23,415 nt of DNA. It comes from a virus. The DNA lies in IMG/VR virus record IMGVR_UViG_3300035701_003366, positions 1-23,415 of that record, one strand, 5' to 3'. The notes beneath the pieces were generated by a model. It made no database searches and was not told the origin of the DNA. It saw only the letters and a program-made list of their open reading frames with translations. Shown here piece after piece: positions 789 through 20,695 of the stretch; position 1 is the stretch's first letter; each line of letters opens with the position of its first letter. Both the position numbers and the translations under genes were made by a program.

Positions 789-1223
789 TCATACTGCTAC
801 TGCATATGGGTCAAATGCCGCATTTTGCTTAGCGACTTTGATGGCGTACAATGCAACGGCCTTGCTATATGAATACCCCACACCTGTATACCTAGTATCG
901 TCTTCTTGCATGTCTTGAATGCTCTCTGTTGCCTCATCAAGATCTCTACTACCCTGCAATATATCATCTATCGTATCATGAATGGCTAATTCAACTTTCT
1001 TGTCTTTGGGCAAGTTCCATGTGCCTGTAGTTGAATTGATCCTTTCATAGTTTGAATTGTATATACTACGCATGTCATCTGGTATATCTTGTATAATGCG
1101 CTTGGTTTCCGCCGCACTCATATCCTTGGTAGGATCATGGGATTGTTGAGCGTGTTGACCTGGTAGGTGTTTGAGGGGTTCCTGTATGCTATCTAACTTG
1201 GCAAGCGTCTCTTGTGCGCCCAT
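789..1223 (-). CDS. Hypothetical protein with KHLPG-H N-terminal tag
   Basis: This 144-aa protein has no enzyme motif I recognise. Residues 10-34 (LDSIQEPLKHLPGQHAQQSH followed by DPTKD) closely match residues 11-35 of the ADP-ribosyltransferase at 4559-5671, at the same distance from the start, while the rest of the two proteins is unrelated. Similar KHL-G-H-Q-H motifs are, to my knowledge, recurrent near the N-terminus of phage head-associated and toxin-like proteins. The remaining part is acidic and helical (IHDTIDDILQGSRDLDEATE). AGGAG precedes the ATG by 8 nt. Its location just after the replication-initiator gene gives no clear functional clue. I infer a virion-associated or injected protein, with low certainty. 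Confidence 0.7.
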   Translation of the reverse strand: MGAQETLAKLDSIQEPLKHLPGQHAQQSHDPTKDMSAAETKRIIQDIPDDMRSIYNSNYERINSTTGTWNLPKDKKVELAIHDTIDDILQGSRDLDEATESIQDMQEDDTRYTGVGYSYSKAVALYAIKVAKQNAAFDPYAVAV

Positions 1224-1418
1224 CGGTCTCTCTCCTGGATCTCAGTATCTGTCTCTTCAGTCTAAATGCTACGCACTTCTGGCGCAGCCTGCTCTTGGCT
1301 GCACTCGATTTATCGAAATAGCTAGAACATAGAACGTTCTCTATATGCTATATAGCTTTAGGGGAAAATTTGATGGCTTGCTAGTTGTCATTTAGTTCAA
1401 ATTCCTCCTATAAAATGC
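1224..1418. other. Intergenic region with clustered palindromes
   Basis: This 195-bp gap lies immediately downstream of the iteron-bearing initiator gene. It holds several perfect dyads: TCGATTTATCGA (1305-1316), AGAACGTTCT (1331-1340) and GCTATATAGC (1347-1356), in an AT-rich stretch. A 6-bp hairpin, GCAGCC/GGCTGC with a 7-nt loop (1284-1302), lacks a T-tract on either side, so I do not call it a terminator. A 16-codon ORF (1391 down to 1341) follows an AGGAGG, but at 12 nt spacing, and I do not call it a gene. Position next to iterons makes a DNA-unwinding element or regulator sites plausible, by inference only. Confidence 0.4.
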
Positions 1419-2039
1419 CTATATTTGACTAGGCTTTTGGGTGCGTCGAAGTAAACTTGCGTTCATTGTTCGAAGTAAACTTGCGTTGCTATTCGAAGTA
1501 AACTTGCGCCCACTAGAAGTAAACTTGCGTTCCTCACTAGATACAGAAGTAAACTTGCGTTCTTTGTCCGACGTAGTGTTGTGATTTTCTGCTTTTGCTT
1601 CCTTAGTTGCTACTATAAGATAGTGATGACGTGCATGCTTCCATGGCATATCGTCTAGGAAACGAAGATCTACTTTGATATTATTATGAGTGGCTCCATT
1701 ATTGTCTTCTCGATCCACCTCATACGACATTTCATGCCCACGACTACCACCACAACGCGTCAACAATGGTGTATCTACTAATACGCCTAATGCTGAATAT
1801 ACAACCTTGCGACTATATCTACTGAGACGCATCATATCTTTATAAGAGAAATGCGCCAGATAGCATCTCTTGTTTTGCCTAGTGTGGTGCCAGTTGCTTA
1901 GAGCGAGTGCCACCCCAAACACATAAGCCGCCGCTTCTCCATATTTGCCTAGGAGATCCTGTCTTATCATTATGTGATTGATGTCCGCAGTTCTTGACGC
2001 GCCCGCTCGCTTGAGGTATTTACAATTATGGTCAGTCAT
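1419..2039 (-). CDS. Putative winged-helix replication initiator (iteron-bearing)
   Basis: The protein is 206 aa from the ATG at 2039; a TTG at 2051 would add four residues, but GAG lies about 8 nt before the ATG, which I prefer. The central part, with YKDMMRLSRYSRKVVYSALG followed by TPLLTRCGG and MSYEVD, has the look of a winged-helix DNA-binding domain of phage and plasmid initiators (recognition helix, then wing). The C-terminus consists of short repeats: KFTS three times, then NASLLR twice. These come from one 14-bp DNA repeat read in two frames, so the DNA is what is conserved. This mirrors lambda O, whose gene contains the origin iterons. The start overlaps the upstream gene by 8 nt. 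Origin binding is inference; a transcriptional regulator is the alternative. Confidence 0.65.
   Translation of the reverse strand: MTDHNCKYLKRAGASRTADINHIMIRQDLLGKYGEAAAYVFGVALALSNWHHTRQNKRCYLAHFSYKDMMRLSRYSRKVVYSALGVLVDTPLLTRCGGSRGHEMSYEVDREDNNGATHNNIKVDLRFLDDMPWKHARHHYLIVATKEAKAENHNTTSDKERKFTSVSSEERKFTSSGRKFTSNSNASLLRTMNASLLRRTQKPSQI
1448..1559. repeat. Five iterons, GAAGTAAACTTGCG
   Basis: Five exact copies of the 14-mer GAAGTAAACTTGCG lie at 1448-1461, 1472-1485, 1495-1508, 1516-1529 and 1546-1559, with start-to-start steps of 24, 23, 21 and 30 bp. Four of the five are followed by TT and three are preceded by TC. The 23-bp step shifts the coding frame of the surrounding gene, so three copies encode R-K-F-T-S and two encode N-A-S-L-L-R. 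Spacing near two helical turns is typical of initiator-binding iterons. I propose this as the replication origin or an autoregulatory site. The short spacers and non-identical spacing argue against CRISPR. Confidence 0.75.
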
Positions 2040-2265
2040 CGTCCATCTCAATCGTTATACCCTTAGACATAGCCTGCTGTATAAGACGTACGACCTGTTT
2101 ATACGTACCTGCCTTCTTAAGTGCTACCATTACTAACGTGCCATGAACTATGGCAGCAGCATGTAATTCTTCTGAAGACATGCCTTTCTTTTCCAGTCGC
2201 TCCATCAAGTCAGAACTAACTGGTATCCAATTACTGTCGTGCGTATCCTCTAATTTCACTCTCAT
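2032..2265 (-). CDS. Small hypothetical protein (77 aa)
   Basis: This helical, soluble-looking protein has the segments WIPVSSDLMERLEKKG and YKQVVRLIQQAMSKGI and an acidic tail MDDD. No family is recognised. Its ATG at 2265 overlaps the stop of the preceding reading frame (ATGA), and its own stop overlaps the start of the initiator-like gene by 8 nt. This indicates translational coupling in a short operon of four genes (2699 to 1419). The size, charge and position next to an initiator gene would fit a loader or copy-control accessory, but nothing in the sequence proves it. Confidence 0.7.
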   Translation of the reverse strand: MRVKLEDTHDSNWIPVSSDLMERLEKKGMSSEELHAAAIVHGTLVMVALKKAGTYKQVVRLIQQAMSKGITIEMDDD

Positions 2266-2537
2266 ACTACGCTACCACGACCTCTATTACGCTTGGCTTG
2301 TTTCCGTGCAGCTTCCTTTTGCTCCCATATAGCAGCCTCAGCCTTGCACTCCCTTATTTTATTTTCTAGCCCATTCTGCGCTTCTATCAACTTTTCTTGT
2401 CGTTTCTTCAGACTCTCTAACTCTTTTACGTTCTTCTTATACCACCATTGGCATCTTTTAATGCCAGCCTTGCAACAGTTGGCTTGCTTGCGTTCTTTAC
2501 TTAGTCTAGTCTCCGCTGCGCGCTCCTTTTCTGTAAA
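2262..2537 (-). CDS. Coiled-coil ORF lacking a start codon
   Basis: An open frame of 91 codons runs from just after the TGA at 2540-2538 to a TGA at 2264-2262 that overlaps the next ATG (ATGA). It encodes a Lys/Glu-rich helical protein beginning FTEKERAAETRLSKERK, with a Cys/Trp patch (CCKAGIKRCQWWYKK) and a long heptad-like stretch to KRNRGRGSVV. Coupling to the next gene and coding-like composition say it is translated, yet the frame has no ATG or GTG and its only TTG is at codon 50. It is in the same frame as the preceding 53-aa gene, separated by a single TGA. Options are stop readthrough, a nonsense mutation splitting one ~146-aa gene, a non-canonical ATT/CTG start, or a sequence error. 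An AAGGAG at 2528-2523 has no usable start after it. Confidence 0.5.
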   Translation of the reverse strand, partial: FTEKERAAETRLSKERKQANCCKAGIKRCQWWYKKNVKELESLKKRQEKLIEAQNGLENKIRECKAEAAIWEQKEAARKQAKRNRGRGSVV

Positions 2538-2699
2538 TCACAACCATTCAATATGAGAATCTTCATAGTCACGTAATAGTTCTTCTGACGCATCGCTTTG
2601 CTGTTCTAATACCTCAGTCAAAAGTCTATTAAGGTTCCTACTTAAACGCCCTCTTTCTTTGAGAGCTTCGCTTATCTTGCGCCGTGTTGTCTCATTCAT
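2538..2699 (-). CDS. Small basic protein with NUMOD3-like segment
   Basis: Starting at the ATG at 2699 the product is 53 aa; a GTG at 2720 would give 60 aa. The ATG is favoured by AGG at 8 nt. The segment TTRRKISEALKERGRLS resembles the NUMOD3 motif found next to HNH nucleases (compare HRRKISEARKNLSEE in the HNH protein at 20685-21230), followed by an acidic helix. It may be a detached DNA-binding piece or the first part of a longer protein, because the frame continues open for 91 codons after its TGA. The leader AGGCTTGATTATG is identical to that of the Cys-rich gene at 12985-13368. Confidence 0.55.
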   Translation of the reverse strand: MNETTRRKISEALKERGRLSRNLNRLLTEVLEQQSDASEELLRDYEDSHIEWL

Positions 2700-2796
2700 A
2701 ATCAAGCCTACAATGCACACTTCTTATAGGACCTATCAATTCCTATGAGATTTGGTCCGCCAACAGCCCTAGCTAATGCAAAGGTAATAGTTTACG

Positions 2797-2825
2797 CATA
2801 TAAGGTGTAACTCACCTATAATCAA
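2797..2825 (-). promoter_or_regulatory. Candidate promoter with operator-like dyad
   Basis: On the minus strand, TTGATT (2825-2820) and TATATG (2802-2797) are separated by exactly 17 bp, a sigma70-like arrangement with 4 of 6 matches in each box. The spacer contains a perfect 5-bp dyad, AGGTG-N5-CACCT (2803-2817), placed where a repressor would block polymerase. It lies about 100 bp upstream of the four-gene set ending in the initiator-like gene, in a 150-bp gap after the terminase gene. Promoter activity is inference. Confidence 0.4.
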
Positions 2826-2874
2826 AGATTTCATACGCGCAGCGTTGATACTATAGGGCAAGTCTAGCTCCATC

Positions 2875-4365
2875 TTACATTCCACTCAAAGCCCAGCCAC
2901 CACTAGTGTCCTTGCGCGTATATGCCTTGTATGCTGCCATGGACTGCGCCACTACGGCGTCAACTTTCCTATGTTCCTCGTCCTCTGCTACTATAGGCTT
3001 GATGATACGGTATTCCTCGTCATCCCGACCTACCTTGATGGCAGATGCTGCCAGGACGTGCTGGCGCAACTGTGGATGGGCCCAATTGACGATGGCACCA
3101 GTCTTGTACATCTTATACAGGAAGGTGTCTGCCTTGACACGCTCCGCTCCCTGGCTGAATTCCTCGCACTTTACTCCTTTGAGTCGCAAGTCCTGTGCCA
3201 TCTTTACTAATTGGTATGGGTCATAGTACAAGGGTGGCTGCAACAAGCCAGCCTTGTGCAACTCAAGAATGACACGCATGACATCATTCTGGTCTACTTC
3301 TTGACCGCGTGGCTCCCATATCCTTACATCTGTGGTATGGACTACCTCTCCCTCTTTGACGCATCCTACTAAGGCAGTGCAGTCACCGTTCTTGCTGCCA
3401 TCGATGGCATAGGTTGCTTTGACTGGCAATGGCCCTTCCCTACGGCAACTGTTGTTCCACATGTCCAGTGTGATAAAGGACTCGTCGCTATCTACCCATT
3501 GGTTCTTGTGGAGGCGTAGGAAGGCATTGGTGCGCAACTGGACTTCCTGGCTCTGATAATACTCCATTGTCTGCCAGGGCATGCGAGCAGTGTGATCCCA
3601 GAAGACAAGCAGGCGATCATCCTCCAACCCATACACAGGCAAGTCGTGCCATAGCTTAACCACGCCAGGATTTAGCGTCTTCTCCGTATCATCGGCAAAG
3701 ATTCGCTTGTACATGTTATATAGCAGCAAGCTCTCAGAACGGAAGCCTGCGTAGGTCTCTACCCAGCGCATGCGGAAGCGCCGGGTGGGAGGTGGCGTCA
3801 TCTCTTCCCATAGACGTTGTAGACGTTCACCAGAGTAAGCCCACAACTCAGACCACAAGCTGATGCCCTGATTACCACCTGCTGCTCCTCTATAGTTAGT
3901 GGTAATGGCCTTGGCAACACTACCATTAGAACCATATGCCATCGTGCCAGTGGGACTTGTGGGAACAGTCCAGCCTAACGACTCAAGCGTAGGAACCATG
4001 GCAGCGAATACACGTCCAGTGCCTTGCTCCAGGTTGTTGGCAACACAGGATATCTCATTAGGACTTTCCACCTCAACCGCCACCCAGGCTCCTACTGCAC
4101 CTGCTATAGCTGTCTTGCCACTCTTCTTTGGCTGTGACCATACTACCATGTTGTATCGGCTGTAACCATTGTGATCCATCTGTAGCGCGTGGCGGAGGAT
4201 CCTGCGTTGATAGTCCTCTAACTTGATGAGACGTTTGGAGATTGGGTCTATGTAGTTGTCGCTTATCCATTGGACGGCAGGCACAGGAAGGATATACTCT
4301 GCCTTGGTCTGTGCCAGGGCATAATTGAACAAGTCGGATATGGTTGTATACTCTGCTACTGCCAT
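2875..4365 (-). CDS. terL: Terminase large subunit
   Basis: This is the ATPase-nuclease motor that packages phage DNA into the prohead. The N-terminal ATPase shows an adenine-binding-like LEDYQRRILR (residues 49-58), a Walker A variant SQPKKSGKT (77-85) and a Walker B-like ISLWSELWAY with the catalytic Glu (168-177). The C-terminal RNase H-like nuclease shows YAIDGSKNGDCTAL with Asp322, YYDPYQL with Asp382, and KVDAVVAQSMAAY with Asp469, all expected acidic positions. At 496 aa it has normal family length. The ATG at 4365 begins 6 nt after the stop of the 62-aa gene, with only a weak ribosome site, which suggests coupled translation. It lies downstream of the TerS-like and ADP-ribosyltransferase genes. 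Confidence 0.95.
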   Translation of the reverse strand: MAVAEYTTISDLFNYALAQTKAEYILPVPAVQWISDNYIDPISKRLIKLEDYQRRILRHALQMDHNGYSRYNMVVWSQPKKSGKTAIAGAVGAWVAVEVESPNEISCVANNLEQGTGRVFAAMVPTLESLGWTVPTSPTGTMAYGSNGSVAKAITTNYRGAAGGNQGISLWSELWAYSGERLQRLWEEMTPPPTRRFRMRWVETYAGFRSESLLLYNMYKRIFADDTEKTLNPGVVKLWHDLPVYGLEDDRLLVFWDHTARMPWQTMEYYQSQEVQLRTNAFLRLHKNQWVDSDESFITLDMWNNSCRREGPLPVKATYAIDGSKNGDCTALVGCVKEGEVVHTTDVRIWEPRGQEVDQNDVMRVILELHKAGLLQPPLYYDPYQLVKMAQDLRLKGVKCEEFSQGAERVKADTFLYKMYKTGAIVNWAHPQLRQHVLAASAIKVGRDDEEYRIIKPIVAEDEEHRKVDAVVAQSMAAYKAYTRKDTSGGWALSGM

Positions 4366-4370
4366 TGTAA

Positions 4371-4559
4371 CTATCTCTTGGGGAACTGTTTGAGCGCCTT
4401 TGTTAATGCACCTATGTTCTCAGATGCTTGGGCCGCTTTATTCGCTAGCAATCCTTGCACTTTTTCCCATTCACGCTTCAACTGCTTTACCAATGCTGGA
4501 TCTTCTATAGATACACCAATAGGTGGGACGTCAACACCCAATTTATCAAACAGGTCCAT
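4371..4559 (-). CDS. Small hypothetical protein between ART and terL
   Basis: The product is 62 aa from the ATG at 4559. The upstream GTG at 4562 is less likely, because AGGAGG sits 7 nt before the ATG, the ideal spacing. The TGA of the ADP-ribosyltransferase gene overlaps this start (TGATG). The protein is helical and charged (LVKQLKREWEKVQGLLANKA) with a Gly-Val-Pro-rich first 20 residues. No family is recognised. The position between an ADP-ribosyltransferase and the terminase large subunit would suit a packaging cofactor or an immunity or chaperone partner of the toxin, but neither is supported by a motif. Confidence 0.7.
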   Translation of the reverse strand: MDLFDKLGVDVPPIGVSIEDPALVKQLKREWEKVQGLLANKAAQASENIGALTKALKQFPKR

Positions 4560-5671
4560 CACTTTGCCTCCTTGACAGGAAACTTTTCCAACTCTGGTAT
4601 TCCTAGATATTCTAGCACTATGTGACCATGAGCATCTGTAGCCTCAACTGGCGCGATCGCACTTTTGACCTTGAACCTTCCCATAGCCAAAACCTCACCC
4701 TGTGGGAAGGTTGATATTGCATTTATGTCTAGTGCTCGTGCTCCAGGGGCAATCTCTATAATCCAACCTGCTTGGACTGATGGTACTCGTGGGCTCATTG
4801 AACCTTTGATAGTGCCATCCGCGAATTGATTACCCATCTCAGCACTGGATGTAAAACTGGTTGGGCCCATTATGTGCTCAGAACCAGGCGCAAACTCCTT
4901 CAATATCTTTGCAGTGTCCTCATGAGGTTCAATTATTCCTCGATAAATGGGTGCATCCTGAGGAATGGAGGCCTCCATAACTTCCTTCAATGTTTCCATG
5001 CGTCCTGCTACCTCAGCAGTAGTCATCTTAGTCTTCTTGATTTTCTGCCCGTCCGGTCCGAATACATTGTTGCCAGTACCCCAATACCCCTCAGATGCCT
5101 TGGCCGCCTTCTTATAGTATTTGTCTGGTACTGGGAATTCATCCCTCACGCGCCTAGCTATAGCTACTGCCTTCTCTTGCGTGCTATTTTCTGGGTCTCG
5201 GCTCAACAGACCCGCTATTTCAAATTCAGTATAGTGTCTGCCAGTTTCAGCAATAAGAGCCTTTTGCATCGCTACATACCGTGCATTTACAAATTCACTG
5301 TCCCTGTTTGCCAATCCTCTCGCGACATTTTGAATGTAAGTTCCTTCCATCAATTGCGTCCCAATACCGCGTATGCCTTGGTAATAACCCTGGGTGTAGT
5401 GAGCCATCATCTGATAAAATGCCCTAGCTTCCGGATCGTTCTCATACAAATCCATCAAACCAGATTCCTTCATGGCCGCCCGTTTTGTTTCATTGTCTGC
5501 GCCCGGAGCAACTACTGGTATGTGTGCAGCGAAACGCGCTCCTGTAGTGCCTCCTTCTACTTGCCTACCCTTGGTAGGATCATGCGTAAATTGGTCATGC
5601 ATGCCAGGAAGGTGCTTAATGGATTCTTGTATAGCATCTAGTTGTATAAGCAACTCTTGCGTGTATTTCAT
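4559..5671 (-). CDS. Phage ADP-ribosyltransferase with R-S-QxE signature
   Basis: The C-terminal ~150 residues carry the conserved marks of the R-S-E class of mono-ADP-ribosyltransferases: PIYRG with Arg244, a Ser-rich strand GPTSFTSSAE (269-278), and FPQGEVLAMGRFKV with Gln324-Gly-Glu326. The usual E-x-E is Q-x-E here, as in C3-type toxins that modify residues other than Arg. Residues 11-35 hold the tag LDAIQESIKHLPGMHDQFTH followed by DPTKG, shared with the protein at 789-1223. The middle is helical. Phage enzymes of this class, such as T4 Alt, are packaged in the head and injected to modify host proteins. The location among packaging genes fits that. It overlaps the TerS-like gene by ATGA. 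The target is unknown. Confidence 0.82.
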   Translation of the reverse strand: MKYTQELLIQLDAIQESIKHLPGMHDQFTHDPTKGRQVEGGTTGARFAAHIPVVAPGADNETKRAAMKESGLMDLYENDPEARAFYQMMAHYTQGYYQGIRGIGTQLMEGTYIQNVARGLANRDSEFVNARYVAMQKALIAETGRHYTEFEIAGLLSRDPENSTQEKAVAIARRVRDEFPVPDKYYKKAAKASEGYWGTGNNVFGPDGQKIKKTKMTTAEVAGRMETLKEVMEASIPQDAPIYRGIIEPHEDTAKILKEFAPGSEHIMGPTSFTSSAEMGNQFADGTIKGSMSPRVPSVQAGWIIEIAPGARALDINAISTFPQGEVLAMGRFKVKSAIAPVEATDAHGHIVLEYLGIPELEKFPVKEAK

Positions 5672-7086: not shown

Positions 7087-7583
7087 CCTATGCTCAACAT
7101 ATTAAGTGGTAATGCGACCTGCAAGTAGAGCGCATAAGGATTGAGAGCAATGAAGTCTGCCAACTCCATAACCATGTAGGATATATCGCCGACACTTATG
7201 CACATATAACATCTACCGACTACATTTACGCCTGCCGCCCGCGCTGCTATGTACATTGGGCGTCTGTTCCTACTAAATATCAAGACAGGCAGATAAAACC
7301 TACCTGTCTTTGTTAGCATCTCCTTACCTTGGCTCTCGGCTTGCTCTACCCAGTCAAAGAATGGACCCTGACCGGCAAACAACTGATCCAGGCACCATGC
7401 CTCCGACTTTTTACACTCTACAGCCAATGGAAAGTCAATTTGCGGGTCCTTAGGCCATATATCTGCCTTGCGGCAGGCCCAGGCACCAGACATAGGCACA
7501 CGGCCTAACTCAATGCCGCACCAGGCTCCTAGTACCTGGGCCACCGCTCTCTCAAAGGATTTGCCCTTCGCCATCCCGTTCAT
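7083..7583 (-). CDS. PD-(D/E)XK nuclease, resolvase-like
   Basis: Motifs of a PD-(D/E)XK nuclease are visible in order: KGKSFERAVAQVLG with Glu11, RVPMSGAWACRKADIWP with the metal Asp, and LAVECKKSEAW with E-x-K. The arrangement matches phage resolvases and putative nucleases of about 160 aa. It overlaps methyltransferase A by ATGA (7580-7583) and the sigma gene downstream. A second, truncated copy of its first codons is present in the scar at 8284-8346, so this gene was once duplicated together with its neighbours. It could resolve Holliday junctions before packaging, or act with methyltransferase A as a restriction-type pair; the sequence does not decide. Confidence 0.75.
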   Translation of the reverse strand: MNGMAKGKSFERAVAQVLGAWCGIELGRVPMSGAWACRKADIWPKDPQIDFPLAVECKKSEAWCLDQLFAGQGPFFDWVEQAESQGKEMLTKTGRFYLPVLIFSRNRRPMYIAARAAGVNVVGRCYMCISVGDISYMVMELADFIALNPYALYLQVALPLNMLSIG

Positions 7584-8269
7584 CGTGATTTACCAATAGC
7601 AACCTGCGCCTCTGTTATGCGTTTGACAGCAATGTCAAAATATTTCTCCTCTATTTCGCTCCCAATGAACCTACGTCCGGTGCTAACAGCGGATACTCCA
7701 GTTGTACCTGATCCCATAAACGGATCAACCACTATGTGACCAGGTAAGGACACATTACACACTAGCCGCGTCCATATCTTTATTGGCTTCACGCATGGGT
7801 GACCATTCTTCTCTGGCTTCTCTGTTAACTGATATGAGCATGGAACACCCATATTTCGTTTGATGGCGTTCTTACCATAATAGAAAATAGGTTGTGCGTC
7901 CAAGTTTCCGAATGTCTGCAACCCTATGGCTGCCGGTTGGTAAAAGCACCCAAACGAATCTGGTTGCGGATACAGGTGGAAATTCCTATTACCGGGGGTC
8001 ACTACAACGCAATTACATAAACCTCGCAATGCCTCTATACACGGTACTACTACTGTTTTCACATATTCTGTTGTATCTACAAAACAACTACTGCCATAAG
8101 AACCTTTCGCACGTGCTCTGGATACAGCTCCGCTACTACCACCATCAATTCCATATGGAGGGTCTGTTACTACTACATCAACATCCCCTGCTTGCAATGT
8201 TTGTATCATTTCTCTAGCATCGCCGCATATTAGTATGCAATCCGGACCCAAATCAATCCATTTAGTCAA
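7580..8269 (-). CDS. DNA methyltransferase A (N6/N4 type)
   Basis: This is an SAM-dependent DNA amino-methyltransferase of the beta order: catalytic TDPPYG (residues 35-40) first, then the SAM-binding VVDPFMGSGTT (180-190). An HPCVKP motif (157-162) precedes the SAM site as usual. At 229 aa it is short, with a compact target-recognition part. The start is TTG at 8269, supported by AGGTG five bases upstream, the same AGGTG-N5-TTG layout as methyltransferase C and the small gene at 9520. Its first residues (WIDLGPDC) match those of methyltransferase C (WIDMGPDC), so the two are paralogous there. It would protect phage DNA from host restriction; the recognition site is unknown. Confidence 0.92.
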   Translation of the reverse strand: MTKWIDLGPDCILICGDAREMIQTLQAGDVDVVVTDPPYGIDGGSSGAVSRARAKGSYGSSCFVDTTEYVKTVVVPCIEALRGLCNCVVVTPGNRNFHLYPQPDSFGCFYQPAAIGLQTFGNLDAQPIFYYGKNAIKRNMGVPCSYQLTEKPEKNGHPCVKPIKIWTRLVCNVSLPGHIVVDPFMGSGTTGVSAVSTGRRFIGSEIEEKYFDIAVKRITEAQVAIGKSR

Positions 8270-8349: not shown

Positions 8350-9144
8350 CTATGCGCCAACTAACACATCAAATACATTATATGGTTTGCAGTTTGGTAT
8401 TTTCCCAAGCCTAACTTCTGTAATGTTTATAGCTTCCTCACTATCATCACAACCTATCCAATCACGCCCCAATTCCTCGGCTGCTACCAAAGCAGTACCA
8501 CTGCCGCAACAGAAGTCAGCAACAATCCCATCTAGTGGGCAAGATGATGCTATAATCTTGGCTAGCAATTTAACTGGCTTCTGTGTTGGGTAGCCTACAC
8601 GCTCGCTACGATCCCCTTGTGCAAGCATATGAATATCCCAAACATCATCAGCAACCTTGCCTCTTATATCATAATAATGGGCTTTGCCTTTCGGGAAGTT
8701 AGAAATAGCATAAGGCTCTCGAACAGGATTATCATCGAAGAAGTACTCAGAACTTTTTGAGTAGCGAAATATGGTATCGTGCCTGCGTCCAAAATCTTTC
8801 TTTTTCCTAGGAGCGCTATTATAGTGCCATATTATCTCATTCCGAAGATTATCATACCCAAATATGTTATCGGCTTCTATTTTGATATAATGACTTGCAT
8901 GCCAGTCAACGTGTATGTAAACCAACCCTGTAGGTTTTAGCAGCCGCCTCATCTCCTGCATTCTTACACCCAACCAAGCAATATAATTCGGCAACCCACC
9001 CTTCCAAACATCAGAAAAGCTCCCAGCAGCTGCAGTATGTTTGTGCCCTGTGAAGAAGGGTGGATCAATGTATATCAAGTCAATGCTTTCGTCAGGCAAA
9101 TAACGCATAACCACCAAATTATCCCCGAAGAATAATTGGTTCAT
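8350..9144 (-). CDS. DNA methyltransferase B (N6 type, DPPF)
   Basis: This is a beta-order DNA adenine methyltransferase: catalytic YIDPPFFTG (residues 25-33) near the N-terminus, then YPTQKPVKLL and the SAM site ADFCCGSGTALVAAEE near residues 208-223, then IGCDDSEEAI. DPPF in place of DPPY is common in the type III and Mod-like branch of this family. Length is 264 aa. The start at 9144 lies 6 nt after the stop of the 35-aa Zn-ribbon gene. It differs clearly from methyltransferases A and C in sequence, so it should recognise another site. The product presumably modifies phage DNA to evade host restriction. Confidence 0.92.
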   Translation of the reverse strand: MNQLFFGDNLVVMRYLPDESIDLIYIDPPFFTGHKHTAAAGSFSDVWKGGLPNYIAWLGVRMQEMRRLLKPTGLVYIHVDWHASHYIKIEADNIFGYDNLRNEIIWHYNSAPRKKKDFGRRHDTIFRYSKSSEYFFDDNPVREPYAISNFPKGKAHYYDIRGKVADDVWDIHMLAQGDRSERVGYPTQKPVKLLAKIIASSCPLDGIVADFCCGSGTALVAAEELGRDWIGCDDSEEAINITEVRLGKIPNCKPYNVFDVLVGA

Positions 9145-9258: not shown

Positions 9259-9288
9259 TTATCTTCCTCCTATCTATATTTACGTGAG

Positions 9289-9361
9289 TGCCAGTGATGG
9301 GGGTCGAACCCATACCTCCGGGAGCATGCCGGACGCCCTACCTAGTTAGACGCACACTGGC
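9289..9361 (-). tRNA. tRNA-like element with atypical anticodon loop
   Basis: On the minus strand a cloverleaf can be drawn: a perfect 7-bp acceptor GCCAGTG/CACTGGC, a D-arm CGTC/GGCG with a GG-containing loop, an anticodon stem TCCGG/CCGGA, and a perfect T-arm ATGGG/CCCAT with the loop TTCGACC. The discriminator is A and CCA is not encoded. The anticodon loop reads CATGCTC. By position the anticodon would be TGC (Ala), but base 33 is A instead of the near-universal U and base 37 is T. The variable loop has only 3-4 nt. The body resembles elongator-tRNA sequences with TTCGA. It abuts the stop of the 51-aa gene. It could be a degraded tRNA or a deliberately altered one. Confidence 0.7.
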
Positions 9362-9519: not shown

Positions 9520-9726
9520 CTAACTCCTTCCCACAACCCTATATGACTCACACCTGCACTCTGGGCATACAAAGTAGATCGCTATTGGCATGCTCTTGTT
9601 AGGTATGTAGAACAGCAGATTATCCAACTCTGCTTGCGAGTCGGCAAACCACACCCTATTGCAATTGCTGCATGTTGCCGAGTATACCCCACTAGCGCCC
9701 TTCCAAATTCTGTGCTGCTTTTCCAA
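9520..9726 (-). CDS. Zn-ribbon protein (68 aa)
   Basis: Two CxxC knuckles, CSNC (residues 19-22) and CPEC (54-57), are separated by 31 residues, with a third Cys at 59; this is a typical zinc ribbon of a small phage protein. The start is TTG at 9726, with AGGTG five bases upstream, the same layout as at the starts of methyltransferases A and C. It overlaps the 3' end of methyltransferase C by 35 nt, which is unusually long for this window and suggests the start was acquired together with the leader cassette. The function is unknown. Confidence 0.7.
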   Translation of the reverse strand: MEKQHRIWKGASGVYSATCSNCNRVWFADSQAELDNLLFYIPNKSMPIAIYFVCPECRCESYRVVGRS

Positions 9727-12028
9727 CTGGGCACCTGTTCAATTGATGGTATCGTATTCTGGCTTGCGAGATGTCTATGTAGTCGGGAACGTTATCCATA
9801 CCTATAAATTGCATATCATTATCAAGTGCTGCGCAACCAGTAGAGCAACTGCCGGCAAATGGGTCAAGCACCACACCACCAAACGGTGTGCGTGCTAATT
9901 TGCATAAATACTCCATCAAAGATAGTGGCTTGACTGTAGTATGTATATTGCCTTGCGCCCTTTCCTTCTCGGGCAACTTTTCCCATTCTCTATAGCTTAT
10001 TCGCACATAGCCGCAAGATGTAGAGCCAACTCGTTGCCAATAGAAATCGTCGCACCCTTGGTTGCGCTCGCTGCGTGATGCCTTCGCCGTGTAGAAGAAC
10101 CGGGAAGCGCCGCCAGTGTCTTTGTGCCGCGTCTTGGATGCTCCGCCAGCGTTCCCCCATATCGTCGTCGTGCTATCACAAGTGTCAGAAGGGCGCCATC
10201 CGTTGCTCACCCCGCTCTGCTCATTTAGCAGCCGCACGGGGCAATCCGGCGTACATTCCCACGCCTCGACCGTCTCCATGCCGTCGGGATCAGTACGGCT
10301 ACGGTTGCCCTTGCCACCACCGAATACAACCCCTGCCTCTGATTGCGGCGCGTTATCCGTACCATTCCATCGCGTCTTCACCCGCTTCGTCCCCACCTGC
10401 CTGCACTCCGGCGTATGGCTCAGCACGAGGTTGGCGGGGAAGCGACCTATTGCAGGATTAGGATCTGGCAATCCTAATCCTGCTTGTTTACTTGCCTCGT
10501 GCGTATGCTTAAATCCAGCATTCCCACCCCAACCTACCTTATCAGTCCCTATTCTACTTCCATCTATATTCAATCCGGCCACACCCCACTTAATAGCGTT
10601 CTGCGCAAAGGTTCCATCTAGTGGCTTCATAGCCAGCACAATAGGCTCCCAAGCAGGCTTGAGCGCAGTGCCATAACCTTCCCATAGTTGCGCGTCAGGC
10701 GTGGAAGGGATAGTAACATTAAGCCCACCAAGGTCTTCAGGCCCATCATATCTCCCATAATCATGGCTTGGTTTCCTCTTATTTCCACTACCTACGTATT
10801 TGCGCCCAACCACTTCTCTTTCTGCTCCTGCTTCCTTATCCATTCCCTTACTGATATCAAACGACTTTGGAAATCCCATGCCGTACAACCACATTAAGCA
10901 ATCACGTATCTCCCACCCAGCATCCTCTATGGCACACAGCAGCCGGTGGTGGGTGCGTGTACCGCCAAATGCCATAAGCATAGCACCAGGTTTGGCAACA
11001 CGTAGTAGCTCGCGCCAAATTTGAGGATCTGGTAAGGCGGAGTCCCAGCATTTGCCCATAAATCCACCATTAGGTATAATTTTAACATTCTTAGAATTGA
11101 AAGGAAGCCATAAATGGAACCAGTACAGAGAACGTGCCCCATCTGTGGTACAAACTACAAAGCGAACCCGAACAAGTTGCGCTACGGACGCCAAACTACT
11201 TGTAGTAGAGGTTGCTCTTACAAGTTTCGGGCCATCAAACTTTCCAAGGGTTGCCAAATGATCTGCCCTGTTTGTGGCAAGCAATTCTACAGGCCTCCCA
11301 GTGGAATCAAAGCGAAGCATAAGACTATTTACTGTTCCGGGCACTGTCAATATGCAGGACGCAGTCTCGGACTGACAAAAAGAATCGTTACCAAGCCTTA
11401 TGTCATGGTGTCCAAATGTGATCATCATGCCTCTGGAATCAAAGCATGGAGAACCAGACGCGAAACTGGCAAAGATAGGCACAGCAAAGCCACCATAGAA
11501 CACCTCCGCCAAACAACTATCAGGTATATCACCAACAACACCAAAGGACGGCATATCTCCCAACTTGAGAACGAAGTCGCCCAAGAATTGCTCTGCATTG
11601 GCATAAATTTCATCCGACAATATCCTATCCGCAGCCCAAAGACCGGACGTTTCATCGCTGTTGCAGATTTCTTCCTCAATGATCATTTTGTGTTGGAAGT
11701 CAATGGAACCTTTTGGCATTCCGATCCGAGATTCTATCCTACTGGTCCTAGCTTTCCTGCACAATATAGAACTGCTACTGGCTATATTCGCAAAGTCATG
11801 GCTCTTAAGGAGCTCGGCATTCCTCTTATAGAGATCTGGGAAGCCGATCTTGAACAAAGCGTCATAAACACGCTGCGAAGTGCCTTGAGTGGTATTATTC
11901 TTTGATAATCCATAAGGCGGATCTGTTATTATGGCATCCACACTATTCTTTGGCAAATCCGCTAACCCCTCCAAACAGTCGCCGGAGAACAGAGCGCAAT
12001 CGGGTCCCATATCAATCCAGTCACCCAA
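9692..12028 (-). CDS. DNA methyltransferase C with in-frame 280-codon antisense insert
   Basis: The uninterrupted frame encodes 778 aa. Residues 1-42 are the start of a DNA methyltransferase ending at the catalytic TDPPYGLS. Residues 43-322 are the antisense translation of a homing endonuclease gene and resemble no protein. Residues 323-778 resume with FMGKCWDSALPDP, AFGGTRTHHRLLCAIEDAGW and, near the end, VKPLSLMEYL and VVLDPFAGSCSTG, where the usual GSGST has Cys for Gly. Relatives read DPPYGLSFMGK without a gap, so the ancestral enzyme had about 498 aa. The start is TTG at 12028 with AGGTG five bases upstream. The region 10020-10470 is near 60% GC against about 45% around it, which suggests a foreign origin. 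Activity of the interrupted protein is doubtful but not excluded. Confidence 0.85.
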   Translation of the reverse strand: MGDWIDMGPDCALFSGDCLEGLADLPKNSVDAIITDPPYGLSKNNTTQGTSQRVYDALFKIGFPDLYKRNAELLKSHDFANIASSSSILCRKARTSRIESRIGMPKGSIDFQHKMIIEEEICNSDETSGLWAADRILSDEIYANAEQFLGDFVLKLGDMPSFGVVGDIPDSCLAEVFYGGFAVPIFASFASGSPCFDSRGMMITFGHHDIRLGNDSFCQSETASCILTVPGTVNSLMLRFDSTGRPVELLATNRADHLATLGKFDGPKLVRATSTTSSLASVAQLVRVRFVVCTTDGARSLYWFHLWLPFNSKNVKIIPNGGFMGKCWDSALPDPQIWRELLRVAKPGAMLMAFGGTRTHHRLLCAIEDAGWEIRDCLMWLYGMGFPKSFDISKGMDKEAGAEREVVGRKYVGSGNKRKPSHDYGRYDGPEDLGGLNVTIPSTPDAQLWEGYGTALKPAWEPIVLAMKPLDGTFAQNAIKWGVAGLNIDGSRIGTDKVGWGGNAGFKHTHEASKQAGLGLPDPNPAIGRFPANLVLSHTPECRQVGTKRVKTRWNGTDNAPQSEAGVVFGGGKGNRSRTDPDGMETVEAWECTPDCPVRLLNEQSGVSNGWRPSDTCDSTTTIWGNAGGASKTRHKDTGGASRFFYTAKASRSERNQGCDDFYWQRVGSTSCGYVRISYREWEKLPEKERAQGNIHTTVKPLSLMEYLCKLARTPFGGVVLDPFAGSCSTGCAALDNDMQFIGMDNVPDYIDISQARIRYHQLNRCPVGKAAQNLEGR
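11052..11080 (+). promoter_or_regulatory. Promoter for the homing endonuclease
   Basis: TTGCCC (11052-11057) and a consensus TATAAT (11075-11080) are separated by exactly 17 bp on the plus strand and point at the endonuclease gene. The -35 box lies in methyltransferase codons and the -10 in the insert, so the promoter spans the insertion junction. Transcription would start near 11087, about 27 bases before the ATG. An AAAGGA ribosome site (11100-11105) sits 8 nt before that ATG. Confidence 0.6.
11063..11902 (+). mobile_element. 840-bp homing endonuclease insert in methyltransferase C
   Basis: The insert separates DPPYGLS from FMGKCWD codons of methyltransferase C. It is 840 bp, or 280 codons, and leaves the host frame open throughout. 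Outside the endonuclease ORF it holds only about 50 bp upstream and nothing downstream, too little for a group I or II intron. The insert ends show no intein splice residues. A near-repeat, ATAAATCC on the left and ATAATCC on the right, flanks it. The exact edges could shift by a few bases. Confidence 0.75.
11114..11905 (+). CDS. Vsr-like (EDxHD-type) homing endonuclease
   Basis: This is the only plus-strand gene. Two N-terminal Cys4 modules (C8, C11, C30, C34; C51, C54, C74, C78) are followed by a basic linker and a Vsr-like nuclease: SQLENEVAQELLCIGINFIR with Glu152/154, FIAVADFFL with Asp185, VLEVNGTFWHSD with Glu195, His202 and Asp204, then MALKELGIPLIEIWEADL. This fits the homing nuclease family related to very-short-patch repair enzymes, as in I-Bth0305I. 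The 263-aa gene has its own promoter and AAAGGA site. Its codons are exactly in register with the host codons on the other strand: none of its 17 Leu or 16 Ser codons is TTA, CTA or TCA, so the methyltransferase frame has no stop. Its TGA reads as a Ser codon of the host. Confidence 0.88.
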   Translation: MEPVQRTCPICGTNYKANPNKLRYGRQTTCSRGCSYKFRAIKLSKGCQMICPVCGKQFYRPPSGIKAKHKTIYCSGHCQYAGRSLGLTKRIVTKPYVMVSKCDHHASGIKAWRTRRETGKDRHSKATIEHLRQTTIRYITNNTKGRHISQLENEVAQELLCIGINFIRQYPIRSPKTGRFIAVADFFLNDHFVLEVNGTFWHSDPRFYPTGPSFPAQYRTATGYIRKVMALKELGIPLIEIWEADLEQSVINTLRSALSGIIL

Positions 12029-15817: not shown

Positions 15818-16223
15818 TGGCAATCTCTTCCATAGCAACATCTGCGAAGTATTGCACCCCTGTAGGTATGGATGTCAAGAACCTCTTAGGCTTTGCGATG
15901 TTGTGATTGTATACCTGTAATGGCTGCTGAACTGCGATGCTATATTTGCGTATGGTTGACCGGACTTCAGGAGTGCCATGGTCTGCTCCTATCTCACTAC
16001 GCCCGTTGTCCAACCTTGCGTAATCAGATTTGTCTGGAAAGACACTGACAACATAAAGTAGATCCCCAGACTGGAGATCTTCATCATGAGCAAACACTTC
16101 CTTGACATTAGCCTCTGCGCCAGGCAGTGTCATAAATAATGGCGTCAAACCCTCTTCATCAGCCACGAACCTTCTTTCCTCTCCGATCTTTTCTAGCATA
16201 ACTGCAAACATTAGGCCACTCAT
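15810..16223 (-). CDS. Hypothetical partner of the radical-SAM enzyme (137 aa)
   Basis: No family is recognised. It begins MSGLMFAVMLEKIGEERRFV, has an acidic, beta-rich core (LQSGDLLYVVSVFPDKSDYA) and a C-terminal part with PKRFLTSIPTG. It overlaps the radical-SAM stop by ATGA and the recA start by 8 nt, so kinase, radical-SAM protein, this protein and RecA are co-translated. There is no Cys cluster and no leader-peptide-like sequence, so it is unlikely to be a classic RiPP precursor. It could be a binding partner or substrate carrier of the radical-SAM enzyme; this is inference from overlap only. Confidence 0.7.
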   Translation of the reverse strand: MSGLMFAVMLEKIGEERRFVADEEGLTPLFMTLPGAEANVKEVFAHDEDLQSGDLLYVVSVFPDKSDYARLDNGRSEIGADHGTPEVRSTIRKYSIAVQQPLQVYNHNIAKPKRFLTSIPTGVQYFADVAMEEIANA

Positions 16224-17428
16224 TCTGCTTCTCCTTGGTTTTGCAACTTCTTGTCTGTTGGTTTTATCATCCTAGGGCATAATGGATCTGGGGTTGGGTG
16301 GTAAATATCCTGTAGACTTTTCTCGTGCGCATGTAACTTTTGTGCTGGGCACCCACCCTTACAAGTATTTAACCACACGCAGTTGGCACACCGCCCTTCT
16401 ATATTCTCGTAATCTACGGCTGTGAACTGACGTATGGCATTGAAAACCTGGCTGTTCTCCCATATCCACTCCAGGGAATGCTCTCGAACATTCGAGTCAG
16501 CAGTAAGGCTTTTCCAAGCTGCACAAGGGTGCACGGTGCCATCCGGTCTAACCAGGATCAGATCCTGACCCGCATGACATGCCTTAGCCTTTCCTAACTT
16601 GGCAAGGTTCTGGCTGGTTCCTACTGCTGCGTGCCTGAAATCTACTGGGCACCCAAACCGCAGGGCACACTGCATCTCCTTACGCGCAGGATCTGTCGCT
16701 TCATAGTCCATTATATCCTGCAACTTGCTAAACTCTAGTGGAGAAAGGTTGAGGACGGACCGATGAACATACCCACGCGTCTGAGGCACAAACCGTAGGA
16801 CAGACATTTTGCTGACGCCAAGTCCTTCACACAGATCTCGTACGGCTGACAGGTGCGCGTAATTCGGCAACATAGGTACAAAATGAACATTGACCCGAAT
16901 GCCGTAAGCCACTGCTGTGCGGATACCCTCTATAATAGCTTGCCAAGCACCAGCCACGTTCATGATATAATCATTCACAACTGGTCTGTGGCTATGTAGA
17001 CTGAATATGAACGTCAACCCTCTAGGAGCCAAATCCCTCATACTTCGAACATATCCCCAACTCCTTAGTCCTCGTATACCCTGATGATAGCAATCAAAGT
17101 ATCTGCTATCTGTGTTGATTACCTTGCCATCCACCACGCTGTAGTCTATATCCCAAATACCCGTAGAGTAGAACAACACCTCAGAGAATCCCAAATCAAG
17201 GGCATGCTCTATGTAATCAATCGCAAGAGGACCCAACAGGATAGGATCCCCACCACTTAGGCTAAGTGTTGTAGCGCCAAGCGCCCGCGCCTCTTCCATC
17301 AGCCGCCAATGCTCTTCTGGCGTCAACTCGTTCCGCAAGGCTGTCGGTGCCGAACCACTTGAGCAGTGTATGCACCGCACCAAGCACTTATTGCTGACTT
17401 CCAGTGATAATTCCTCGACTTGCTGCAT
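16220..17428 (-). CDS. Radical SAM/SPASM enzyme
   Basis: The product is 402 aa from the ATG at 17428 (GGAG 6 nt upstream; the TTG at 17431 is less likely). Near the N-terminus, NKCLVRCIHCSSG is the C-x3-C-x2-C motif that binds the 4Fe-4S cluster, and LSLSGGDPIL is the SAM-contacting motif, with Asp where Glu is usual. The C-terminal ~110 residues form a SPASM-type Cys domain: ACHAGQDLILVRPDGTVHPC, then CANCVWLNTCKGGCPAQ and a final CPR, enough for auxiliary clusters. Family members modify peptides, proteins or small molecules, such as PqqE or sulfatase-maturing enzymes. A phage copy next to a hydroxymethyl-dU-kinase-like gene suggests base hypermodification, but the substrate is unproven. Confidence 0.9.
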   Translation of the reverse strand: MQQVEELSLEVSNKCLVRCIHCSSGSAPTALRNELTPEEHWRLMEEARALGATTLSLSGGDPILLGPLAIDYIEHALDLGFSEVLFYSTGIWDIDYSVVDGKVINTDSRYFDCYHQGIRGLRSWGYVRSMRDLAPRGLTFIFSLHSHRPVVNDYIMNVAGAWQAIIEGIRTAVAYGIRVNVHFVPMLPNYAHLSAVRDLCEGLGVSKMSVLRFVPQTRGYVHRSVLNLSPLEFSKLQDIMDYEATDPARKEMQCALRFGCPVDFRHAAVGTSQNLAKLGKAKACHAGQDLILVRPDGTVHPCAAWKSLTADSNVREHSLEWIWENSQVFNAIRQFTAVDYENIEGRCANCVWLNTCKGGCPAQKLHAHEKSLQDIYHPTPDPLCPRMIKPTDKKLQNQGEAE

Positions 17429-17431
17429 CAA

Positions 17432-18109
17432 TCACTCCTTGTTCGCATCTGATGGCCTGTATTTGTCTACTCGATAGCATTGGTCGATGGTCAAGAAGTC
17501 ATTGGCCTGATCGAACAAGCTGGTCAGGTCACTCACCTCATAACAGGCGTAACTTATATCCTCTACATCAAAACTAGCGTCAATAGCCCGCTGCCGTACT
17601 TTCTGTATGGCGTACCATTTATCCTCGGTGTTTTGCGTATTGAACTCACTCTTTGTGCCACGTTCCTCACGTCGCTTGAGAACGTTCTCTATGCACGCCT
17701 CAAGAGGTGTATCAAGGAATAGCCACTTGTATTGTAGCCCAAATCCATTGATCTCGCGCGTCAACTCTCTATAGCGTGTCCATAGGTGGCTTACTATCAA
17801 GCCCTCAAACACAACATGTCCGAACTGGCTAAAATAGCGCACCGTGCTACATATCCAGTCCTGATTGGTAATAGTGTCGCAACCTCCGCATACATTGACG
17901 TAAGACCCGATAGCAAACATAGGAACACCACTAGGTAAGACTACACCAGTTGCTAAGGTCTTGCCATGGTGTTTTACCTCATAAGAGGATACACCCATCC
18001 CGCAGGCCTCAAGCAACTGGCGCACGATGTAAGACTTACCAGATCCAGACGTGCCACGAATGTTGATCACCACGGAGATATACCTCGGGATGGCTCCACT
18101 ATGAGCCAT
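17432..18109 (-). CDS. P-loop kinase resembling 5-hmdU DNA kinase
   Basis: The product is a 225-aa P-loop NTPase: VVINIRGTSGSGKS (Walker A at residues 19-26), then IGSYVNVCGGCDTIT (CGGCD at 74-78), HVVFEGLIVSHLW and a lid region LKRREERGTKSEF. To my knowledge the G-Y-x3-CGGCD and F-E-G-L motifs mark the phage kinase family that includes 5-hydroxymethyldeoxyuridine DNA kinases of thymine-hypermodifying phages, though homologs occur elsewhere with untested substrates. It is followed 3 nt later by the radical-SAM gene. The start at 18109 has a poor ribosome site; a GTG at codon 13 or 14 with GAGG upstream would give VVINIRG, closer to relatives, so the N-terminus is uncertain. Confidence 0.78.
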   Translation of the reverse strand: MAHSGAIPRYISVVINIRGTSGSGKSYIVRQLLEACGMGVSSYEVKHHGKTLATGVVLPSGVPMFAIGSYVNVCGGCDTITNQDWICSTVRYFSQFGHVVFEGLIVSHLWTRYRELTREINGFGLQYKWLFLDTPLEACIENVLKRREERGTKSEFNTQNTEDKWYAIQKVRQRAIDASFDVEDISYACYEVSDLTSLFDQANDFLTIDQCYRVDKYRPSDANKE

Positions 18110-19169: not shown

Positions 19170-19904
19170 TTATATCTTCTGCAACCACAACACCACATCG
19201 ATTCCTAAAGACCAAATTCCATACTTAAACCTGCGCACGCGCCACAAGTTCTCGTTCCTAGCACCGGATGTGGCACCGCCTTTGGTTTCTCCGAAGCCTC
19301 GCACAACCCGGCCCAGTAGCCTAAACCTATCCCACAACCTGGGCCATAATTCCAAGTCTAGCGCATACATCTCACTGTTCTTGTAGACCTGTCCTACTAT
19401 CAATACTAGAACGTGGCCTGGCTTGAGGGCAGTGTATATGTTATCAAACACCTGCTCCATACCCTCTAGGAATGCTTCCAGGCTATTCACTGCTAGTGTG
19501 CCTTCTCCTTCCCAGGGGATGATGTCCATATAAGGTGGATGGCATATCACCATATCAACTGGCTCATCTGGCTTCCACACCCGGCTGTCTGCTTTGATGA
19601 TACTGCTGCGCGTGGGATTGATATCGTTAGCAATGCATCTATTGCCCATATGCTCACATACATCAATGGTAGTGCCGCCACCTGCAAAGCAATCCCACAC
19701 CACATCATTACACCTAGTATAGCGTTCCAGCGCCACGTAGATTATCTCTGGGTGGGTGCGACCATGGAAAGAGATATCCCCATAGTGCTGTGGCGAGCTA
19801 GGCAATACATCCGGCCATATAGCCTCTGTGTAGTGAGGCGCATAACCGCGCCACTCAGTAAGGTTGACGCGCCCAAACTTTGCCGGGTTGATGAATGGAC
19901 TCAT
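19170..19904 (-). CDS. DNA methyltransferase D (HPPY motif)
   Basis: This is a SAM-dependent DNA methyltransferase in which the SAM site comes first (VVWDCFAGGGTTIDVCEHMG, residues 68-87) and the catalytic motif second (MVICHPPYMDII, 118-129), the reverse of the beta order in A, B and C. The first residue of the catalytic tetrad is His instead of Asp or Ser/Asn, unusual for base amino-methyltransferases. THPEIIYVALERY near residue 50 is a family-typical motif. It has 244 aa with ALKPGHVLVLIVG downstream. ATGA overlaps join it to the gene upstream. It may be a working enzyme with a variant motif or a catalytically weakened one; the site is unknown. Confidence 0.85.
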   Translation of the reverse strand: MSPFINPAKFGRVNLTEWRGYAPHYTEAIWPDVLPSSPQHYGDISFHGRTHPEIIYVALERYTRCNDVVWDCFAGGGTTIDVCEHMGNRCIANDINPTRSSIIKADSRVWKPDEPVDMVICHPPYMDIIPWEGEGTLAVNSLEAFLEGMEQVFDNIYTALKPGHVLVLIVGQVYKNSEMYALDLELWPRLWDRFRLLGRVVRGFGETKGGATSGARNENLWRVRRFKYGIWSLGIDVVLWLQKI

Positions 19905-20695
19905 TCCTTTTTGACTCTTTTGCCCGCCATTGACTTGAGGATTTCCTTAGTGTCTTGTATATTGGAGCCGGTCGCATCCATCTCAGCCCGCAACTGAGCA
20001 CCCAACGACACCAACATGTCGCCGCGAAGGCGCATAGCGTCTGTAATAGCCCGTAGCAACTTGTAGGCATACAGCCGATCGTTCTCTGCTGTAACTGATA
20101 CAAGATACTCCGGGTCAATGAGCACCAACGCCTTGATTTGTGCCTCAGTGGTCTTCTCTAACTTCATCTCCTCACGCAAGTGCAATTCCACTTTGGCATA
20201 TACAGAATCCCGAGAGGTCTTAGATTCATTAGCATCCGCCTCAGCCGATGCGCATTGCATCGCTACCCAGGCATACCGCGCAGCTTGGGTAGAGAATTCG
20301 TAGGAGATACCTGTCTGCTCTATTCCTAGCAATTCTCCAACAGTAACTTCCTTGCCTGCCAACGGGATTGTTTGCTGAAATATGTCCCTATCTAGTTTCT
20401 CTAGGTCACTTCCATTCGTTGCCATTAGTCCTCCCCTATGCGATAACTCTGAATTGAACACCAACGCATCGAACACCGTTCTACTTACCAGGTCTACCTT
20501 AGCAAACCTCTTGTATAATAAACTAGCTGCTTCTTCTGCCTTGTCCTCCTCGTGATATGACAGCAACTTGCCTAAATTGACGGCCAGAGCTATGTAGCCA
20601 TCTTCACCATGCCTATAGTACAAGTCCTGCACCCCGATACTATTGGCGATGATGTCATCGTATAGATCTAATGAGCGTGATATATTAGGCAGCAT
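19901..20695 (-). CDS. Conserved-looking phage replication-region protein (264 aa)
   Basis: The protein is mostly helical. A C-terminal region (ASAEADANESKTSRDSVYAK and then EEMKLEKTTEAQIKALVL, DPEYLVSV, LLRAITDAMRLRGDMLVSLG and AQLRAEM) resembles a pattern seen in phage recombination and replication operons, where a UvsY-like mediator or an SSB-loading role is suspected. I cannot assign it to a named family. It overlaps the HNH gene by 11 nt and methyltransferase D by ATGA, and it lies between the polymerase and SSB genes. A recombination mediator role is an inference from its place and helical build. Confidence 0.6.
   Translation of the reverse strand: MLPNISRSLDLYDDIIANSIGVQDLYYRHGEDGYIALAVNLGKLLSYHEEDKAEEAASLLYKRFAKVDLVSRTVFDALVFNSELSHRGGLMATNGSDLEKLDRDIFQQTIPLAGKEVTVGELLGIEQTGISYEFSTQAARYAWVAMQCASAEADANESKTSRDSVYAKVELHLREEMKLEKTTEAQIKALVLIDPEYLVSVTAENDRLYAYKLLRAITDAMRLRGDMLVSLGAQLRAEMDATGSNIQDTKEILKSMAGKRVKKE

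Follow-up and report, generated by a model that had tools for sequence, protein, structure and literature searches.

Homing endonuclease genes (HEGs) that spare their host gene without splicing have recently been described in phages. Arsenault, Gosselin, and Gogarten reported in 2025 (PMC11855218) the ShiLan domain, an out-of-frame HNH endonuclease encoded on the same strand of a phage methylase in the absence of splicing. Pacc40 gp60 is a second case in that work, and Applejack gp54/55 is a related case (PMC12613952). Here we analyze a single viral contig of 23,415 bases (IMG/VR record IMGVR_UViG_3300035701_003366; this whole stretch is called the window hereafter), in which a HEG lies within a DNA methyltransferase (MT) gene on the opposite strand. 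Like ShiLan, the window element is placed inside a phage DNA methylase with an uninterrupted host frame and no splicing signals, and the two share a predicted loop and a patchy distribution. By contrast, ShiLan is encoded on the host strand in the third frame, specifies an HNH nuclease, occupies the site ALKPxxEPIVVARKP, and has no detectable ribosome-binding site, whereas the window element is antisense in exact register, specifies an EDxHD/Vsr-fold nuclease, occupies the site DPPYxL^FMGK, and carries promoter and ribosome-binding site signals. The words "antisense" and "opposite strand" are absent from PMC11855218, and neither the antisense register form nor its EDxHD nuclease, site, spread, or codon-level selection was found in the literature searched, the preprint 10.1101/2025.01.02.630785 not being excluded. 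An earlier note on the window, made from sequence alone, knew of no described element using this strategy. This claim failed in part: the general idea of an unspliced, host-sparing HEG had been published with a same-strand counterpart in 2025, and the antisense register lineage is a new variant of it.

Three other known systems share single traits with the window element. I-Bth0305I (PDB 3R3P), an EDxHD homing endonuclease and the best profile match, has the same nuclease domain, but its PDB record describes a protein of a mobile intron, whereas the window HEG has no intron, possesses an N-terminal zinc-ribbon-like domain, and lies antisense in a protein gene. Inteins with an embedded homing endonuclease are likewise situated at conserved host residues and translated with the host protein, as we infer for the window element, which differs in lacking splicing residues and in encoding its HEG on the opposite strand. 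Free-standing HEGs, as in T4-like and other phages, likewise have an independent promoter and ribosome-binding site, but lie between genes and not, as here, within a gene in a dual-coding arrangement.

Anatomy of the interrupted methyltransferase gene

The features of the locus, in window positions, are as follows.

9692..12028, minus strand: host beta-class DNA methyltransferase of the phrog_67 family (Pfam N6_N4_Mtase), the 280-aa loop included
9848..9865, minus strand: SAM-binding motif I DPFAGS (aa 722-727), identified by sequence and nearly invariant in homologs
11052..11057, plus strand: -35-like hexamer TTGCCC, within the host codons for Met-Gly-Lys of FMGK
11063..11902: inserted element, whose minus strand reads as an MT loop of 280 aa, delimited by alignment with uninterrupted MTs
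11063..11113, plus strand: leader of the element, 51 bp, stop-free in the MT frame too
11075..11080, plus strand: -10 hexamer TATAAT, within the insert, at a 17-bp spacer from the host-derived -35
11101..11107, plus strand: Shine-Dalgarno-like AAGGAAG, preceding the ATG at 11114
11114..11905, plus strand: homing-endonuclease-like gene, 263 aa, with N-terminal zinc-ribbon-like Cys pairs and a C-terminal EDxHD/Vsr-fold nuclease
11912..11923, minus strand: catalytic motif IV DPPY (aa 36-39), identified by sequence, just upstream of the insert in the MT reading

The boundaries of the insert were fixed by aligning the MT with 40 uninterrupted MTs (DPPYxLxFMGKxWD), a check that the earlier note had proposed. 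The 840-bp insert corresponds to 280 MT codons, K43-G322, between DPPYGLS (aa 36-42) and FMGK (F323), and the MT frame of 778 aa continues through it without a stop. HEG codons on the plus strand and MT codons on the minus strand are in exact register, the TGA stop of the HEG being the antisense of the host Ser42 codon (TCA). None of the 17 Leu and 16 Ser codons of the HEG is TTA, CTA, or TCA; in this phage TTA and CTA together account for 30% of Leu codons, and TCA for 14% of Ser codons. The insert size and coordinates, the register, the Leu and Ser counts, the 51-bp leader, and the 778-codon frame had all been given in the earlier note, and all held. Based on the phage's own codon usage, an open register frame arises by chance with P = 2.4e-4 (Fisher P = 2e-4), and the other four frames of the window HEG were never open in simulation. 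Elsewhere in the window, an unrelated gene (4559-5671, minus strand) also has a stop-free antisense register run of 279 codons, and thus the window case alone is not decisive; its relatives, described below, make it so. A 271-aa antisense ORF at 4826-5641 (plus strand), in register with that unrelated gene, is apparently fortuitous and served as a control. A second contig, IMGVR_UViG_3300031999_001845, is identical to the window over the MT/HEG region, which makes a simple error of assembly less likely; the two contigs share 10.8 kb and differ at 11 positions, all at 16,829 or beyond.

The position of motif IV near the N terminus and of motif I near the C terminus assigns the MT to the beta class, and the host MT meets the criteria for a beta-class N6-adenine/N4-cytosine MTase in motif order and MTase fold. 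D-P-P of motif IV is invariant across 52 homologs. In a Foldseek search, a model of the fused protein matched CcrM (6PBD, E 2.4e-5), M.BceJIV, M1.HpyAVI, and M.RsrI in alignments long enough to span the insert. AlphaFold predicted much of the core of the fused MT with a pLDDT of about 90-98, and residues 43-322 mostly with 25-55. These values are compatible with a loop that is disordered while the MT core is confidently folded, but the low ones are weak evidence by themselves because the underlying alignment is thin over the loop. A relative without an insert at the DPPY/FMGK site (L006) has 20-30 aa there as a natural loop.

The endonuclease and its expression signals

The HEG family profile matched 3r3p best (E 3.8e-6), followed by Vsr (E 1.3e-3). 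In a comparison of the HEG with 19 relatives, E152, D185, E195, and D204 were invariant and H202 nearly so. PHROG matches of the HEG were weak and named HNH or homing endonuclease, and a Foldseek search with the predicted HEG model gave a best E of 0.02, with no match below 0.001. Based on the sequence profile and the conserved catalytic residues, we place the nuclease among EDxHD/Vsr-fold homing endonucleases, its DNA cleavage and homing being inferred. The earlier description of a Vsr-like endonuclease thus held, with 3R3P ahead of Vsr.

An independent -35/-10 promoter of the insert, as previously claimed, was confirmed only in part: the -10 hexamer is in the insert, but the -35 hexamer is in host MT sequence coding for the conserved MGK. 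Across 14 nested loci, TATAAT-like hexamers peak at 17 bp from a TTGCCC-like hexamer antisense to the host MGK codons. It is thus possible that the target site completes the HEG promoter by lending a -35 from host codons; this is suggestive at 14 loci, and there are no expression data. Upstream of the HEG start, AGGAGG is matched at 4/6 positions or better in most of these 14 loci. Leaders at the other nested loci are 30-60 bp long, every one a multiple of 3.

Recurrence of the nested arrangement

To find the HEG family, we aligned the HEG with the relatives found first and used this alignment to search viral contigs. In scans with single sequences, the HEG query returned the same phage only and the MT query few MTs; the top MT matches from profile scans included few interrupted genes, the interruption probably lowering their rank. 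About 15 distinct loci, most of them strongly diverged, have an antisense HEG in register with an open MT frame (the window, L276, L277, L278, L279, L282, L283, L284, L285, L286, L287, L289, L291, L197, and the more divergent L294). They share the insertion site, which is preceded by DPPYxL and followed by (G)FMGKxWD or an equivalent motif. The MT frames comprise 513-1142 aa and are open over about 220-290 codons in 15/15 loci, at a HEG GC content ranging from 39 to 69%. Motif IV and the FMxK-like motif are intact in all 15 MTs; motif I was found by pattern in 10, the remaining ones including contig-cut or divergent ends.

Identity of relatives to the window HEG protein ranges from 52% down to about 29%. 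HEGs of L289 and L291 are 98% identical at 72% identity of the MT core, and those of L282 and L284 are 91% identical at 49%. HEGs are thus more alike than their host MTs, indicating lateral transfer of the HEG. No relative of the HEG was matched in plasmids, and the HEG profile gave no match at E 1e-15 in 399 genomes of one bacterial phylum, a search without a positive control.

Two of these loci carry further inserts. The antisense ORF of L282 (1447-3900) is an MT with two nested homing genes, the EDxHD gene antisense at DPPY^FM and, further along the MT, a sense out-of-frame HNH gene of the Cr-LKS3/ShiLan type. The MT of L286 contains an intein-like insert in addition to the antisense HEG.

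Codon-level selection on the methyltransferase frame

In the 15 nested loci, none of 476 Leu and Ser codons was stop-linked, that is TTA, CTA, or TCA, compared with 91.9 predicted from the codon usage of local genes (log10 P about -47 for the 15 loci combined). This value is not corrected for ancestry, and combined P values are overstated because the loci share ancestry. Reading the 15 HEGs in each of their five other frames gave 0 stops for the register antisense frame and 134, 282, 76, and 242 for the rest.

The composition of the loop was examined with the HEG protein held fixed and codons drawn from local usage, stop-linked codons being excluded. Loops read in the MT frame contain 440 D+E residues versus 296 expected and 275 R+H versus 425 expected; a set of small and polar residues is enriched (z = 16.6), and Cys is depleted. 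The D+E, R+H, and small/polar shifts, which render the loop acidic and hydrophilic, have the same sign in 14/14 loci (overall z 11-19). With MT-core codon usage as the reference instead, z was 14.4 for D+E and -10.7 for stops. C-ending codons are favored mainly where the loop gains D, E, or G (GTC, ATC, CTC, TCC, ACC, CCC), but not where it receives V or A (AAC, GAC, CAC, TGC, CGC, GGC). This preference depends on the loop residue and thus does not reflect a general bias at the third position. Part of the composition shift is seen in the sense+1 frame as well, which nevertheless contains 65 stops; its shift is presumably a consequence of the same third-position choices.

Taken together, the 15 nested relatives, the absence of stop-linked codons, and the loop composition indicate that selection, and not luck, explains the open frame. 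The earlier note had proposed a read-through loop after the catalytic motif, "selected, or lucky"; the loop is supported, and selection is favored by the nested relatives. We consider it very likely that the 280-aa loop is translated, retained, and under selection, in the absence of expression data and with its retention in the mature protein inferred.

Relatives outside methyltransferase genes

Four near relatives of the HEG (L288, L295, L199, and L293) were not inside an MT gene on inspection and formed a control group. Stop-linked codons were also scarce in this group (2/131 vs 19.3 expected), whereas the composition shift was absent (z about 1); it was reversed in distant relatives, which use TTA, CTA, and TCA freely. 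In a tree, L288 and L295 fall inside the nested clade, and these GC-rich members are likely escapees from nesting. L199 and L293 form a separate branch outside it with modest support, so that stop avoidance is not tied perfectly to nesting. The missing composition shift in the control group would fit recent escape, and another cause of their stop avoidance is possible. The earlier note had named, as a refutation, relatives that avoid these codons when not antisense to a gene, and the count of 2/131 meets this in part.

At L288 (about 2839-4007), a repeated segment flanks the non-nested HEG (GSEQPYGLNLLYSCESP in plus-strand translation), and MT fragments in permuted order lie on both sides of it. 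In the isolated mycobacteriophages Seagreen (L303) and Langerak (L302), a distant Vsr-like relative is antisense in a split MT (1563-3894), and frame-keeping is thus not universal. The antisense register ORF of Langerak is annotated as hypothetical gene 59.

Nested homing genes of other origin

HNH_3 genes in another sense frame are nested in MT genes with an open frame at L006 (733-1203) and L089 (3463-3888). The HNH_3 gene of L006 has a GC content of 38%, and 0 stops were seen where 25 were expected. ShiLan-type HNH genes in an MT with an open frame were also found in Mantra, Bipolar, MISSy, and cyanophage Cr-LKS3. The isolated Mycobacterium phage MKC-IRE-02 (L179, PP711298.1) provides a second antisense case, an unrelated one, in which an HNH gene at about 1486-1851 (plus strand) occupies a non-register antisense frame of an MT gene at 938-2491 (minus strand) whose frame is open. 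The acidic loop shift was observed in 7/7 other nested cases, which are of the HNH type, of different origin, and on either strand (single-locus z 2-7).

In a huge phage (L181, LR756508.1 298614-303072; positions 1256-3604 and 1629-2510), an MT carries an intein-like insert with Cys...Asn/Ser ends and, inside the intein, an HNH endonuclease in another reading frame, that is, an intein with an out-of-frame homing endonuclease.

Interpretation and rival explanations

The anatomy of the insert, its recurrence, the absence of stops, the composition shift, and signs of lateral transfer are shown here. As an explanation we propose that a mobile EDxHD/Vsr-like HEG targets the most conserved stretch of the MT, the codons from DPPYxL to FMGKxWD, where it lies antisense with its codons exactly in register. 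It would be expressed from a short promoter of its own, with the -10 in the element and the -35 from host codons, and a ribosome-binding site. Without splicing, the MT mRNA would be translated through the insert, so that 280 extra residues would follow motif IV as a loop. Selection acting on the host protein would have purged the three HEG codons that read as stops on the other strand, and would bias synonymous choices toward an acidic loop with many small residues and little Arg, His, Cys, or Trp. Such a loop may be soluble, disordered, and tolerated, and the parasite would thereby spare an important host gene. We regard a read-through HEG with a retained MT loop as very likely the best explanation, DNA cleavage, homing, MT activity, and loop retention being inferred; in particular, that the MT is active with the loop is an inference made without activity data.

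Alternatively, the HEG could have split or inactivated the MT, with a second fragment starting from Met324 of FMGK or no function remaining, and the open frame would be incidental. A GGTGG stretch precedes the ATG of FMGK in the window, the MT of Seagreen and Langerak is truly split with the distant Vsr-like relative between the pieces, and MTs are dispensable in some mycobacteriophages (PMC11855218). Incidental frames would, however, close by neutral drift, whereas all 15 are open even where the HEG GC content is as low as 39%, the composition of the loop is under selection, and motif IV and the FMxK-like motif are intact in every nested MT, so that we consider this reading very unlikely. We hold even less confidence in removal of the insert as an unrecognized intron or intein. 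These are the usual host-sparing routes, and the same MT family hosts intein-like inserts (Lilac L007, L286, and L181), but an intron would have only 51 bp besides the HEG, there was no Rfam match at E up to 1, and an excised RNA needs no stop-free, acid-biased frame. Against an intein, there is no Cys or Ser at the insert start (K43), and Phe (F323), not Cys, Ser, or Thr, follows the insert. The earlier claims of too little DNA for an intron and of no intein signals thus held.

An intrinsic codon preference of the HEG clade for C-ending codons and against TTA, CTA, and TCA, unrelated to the host frame, would account for the low count in near free-standing relatives. This is again very improbable: the C-ending bias is mainly limited to codons turning the loop residue into D, E, or G, free-standing relatives lack the composition shift, and the avoided codons occur freely in distant relatives. 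Chance, that is a lucky insertion that happened to be open, draws support from the 279-codon run in the unrelated window gene, but is all but excluded by the low probability for the window alone and, ancestry uncorrected, by that over all 15 loci.

With the read-through interpretation, the antisense, register-matched lineage takes its place beside the same-strand example published earlier, both being homing elements that spare the host without splicing. PMC11855218 lacked evidence at the codon level for selection on the host-frame reading as a protein, and such evidence is supplied here. With the overlap in register, the double constraint stands out unusually clearly: 3/61 codons are ruled out, and the choice among synonymous codons adjusts the loop. 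A bolder reading, toward which the balance of evidence tilts slightly, is that read-through homing elements constitute a third host-sparing way besides introns (at the RNA level) and inteins (at the protein level), through dual coding, with repeated origin (EDxHD antisense, HNH sense, and HNH antisense) in a single MT family, at several of its sites and on either strand. If so, the host protein keeps the other frame of the mobile gene as a tolerated acidic loop. The loci offer a natural system for studying overlapping genes, the tolerance of enzymes for 280-residue loops, and the lowering of the cost of a selfish gene to its host.

Other genes of the contig

Elsewhere in the window, a radical SAM/SPASM protein (16220-18109, minus strand) is encoded beside a 5-hmdU DNA kinase-like protein (Pfam HMUDK_HMUD1), a pair that suggests a thymidine hypermodification pathway in the phage. 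Three more N6/N4 DNA methyltransferase genes are present (7580-8269, 8350-9144, and 19170-19904, minus strand), and a free-standing HNH_3 endonuclease gene (20685-21230, minus strand) adjoins a family A DNA polymerase gene. A tRNA-Ala (TGC) gene (9288-9361, minus strand) adjoins the interrupted methyltransferase.
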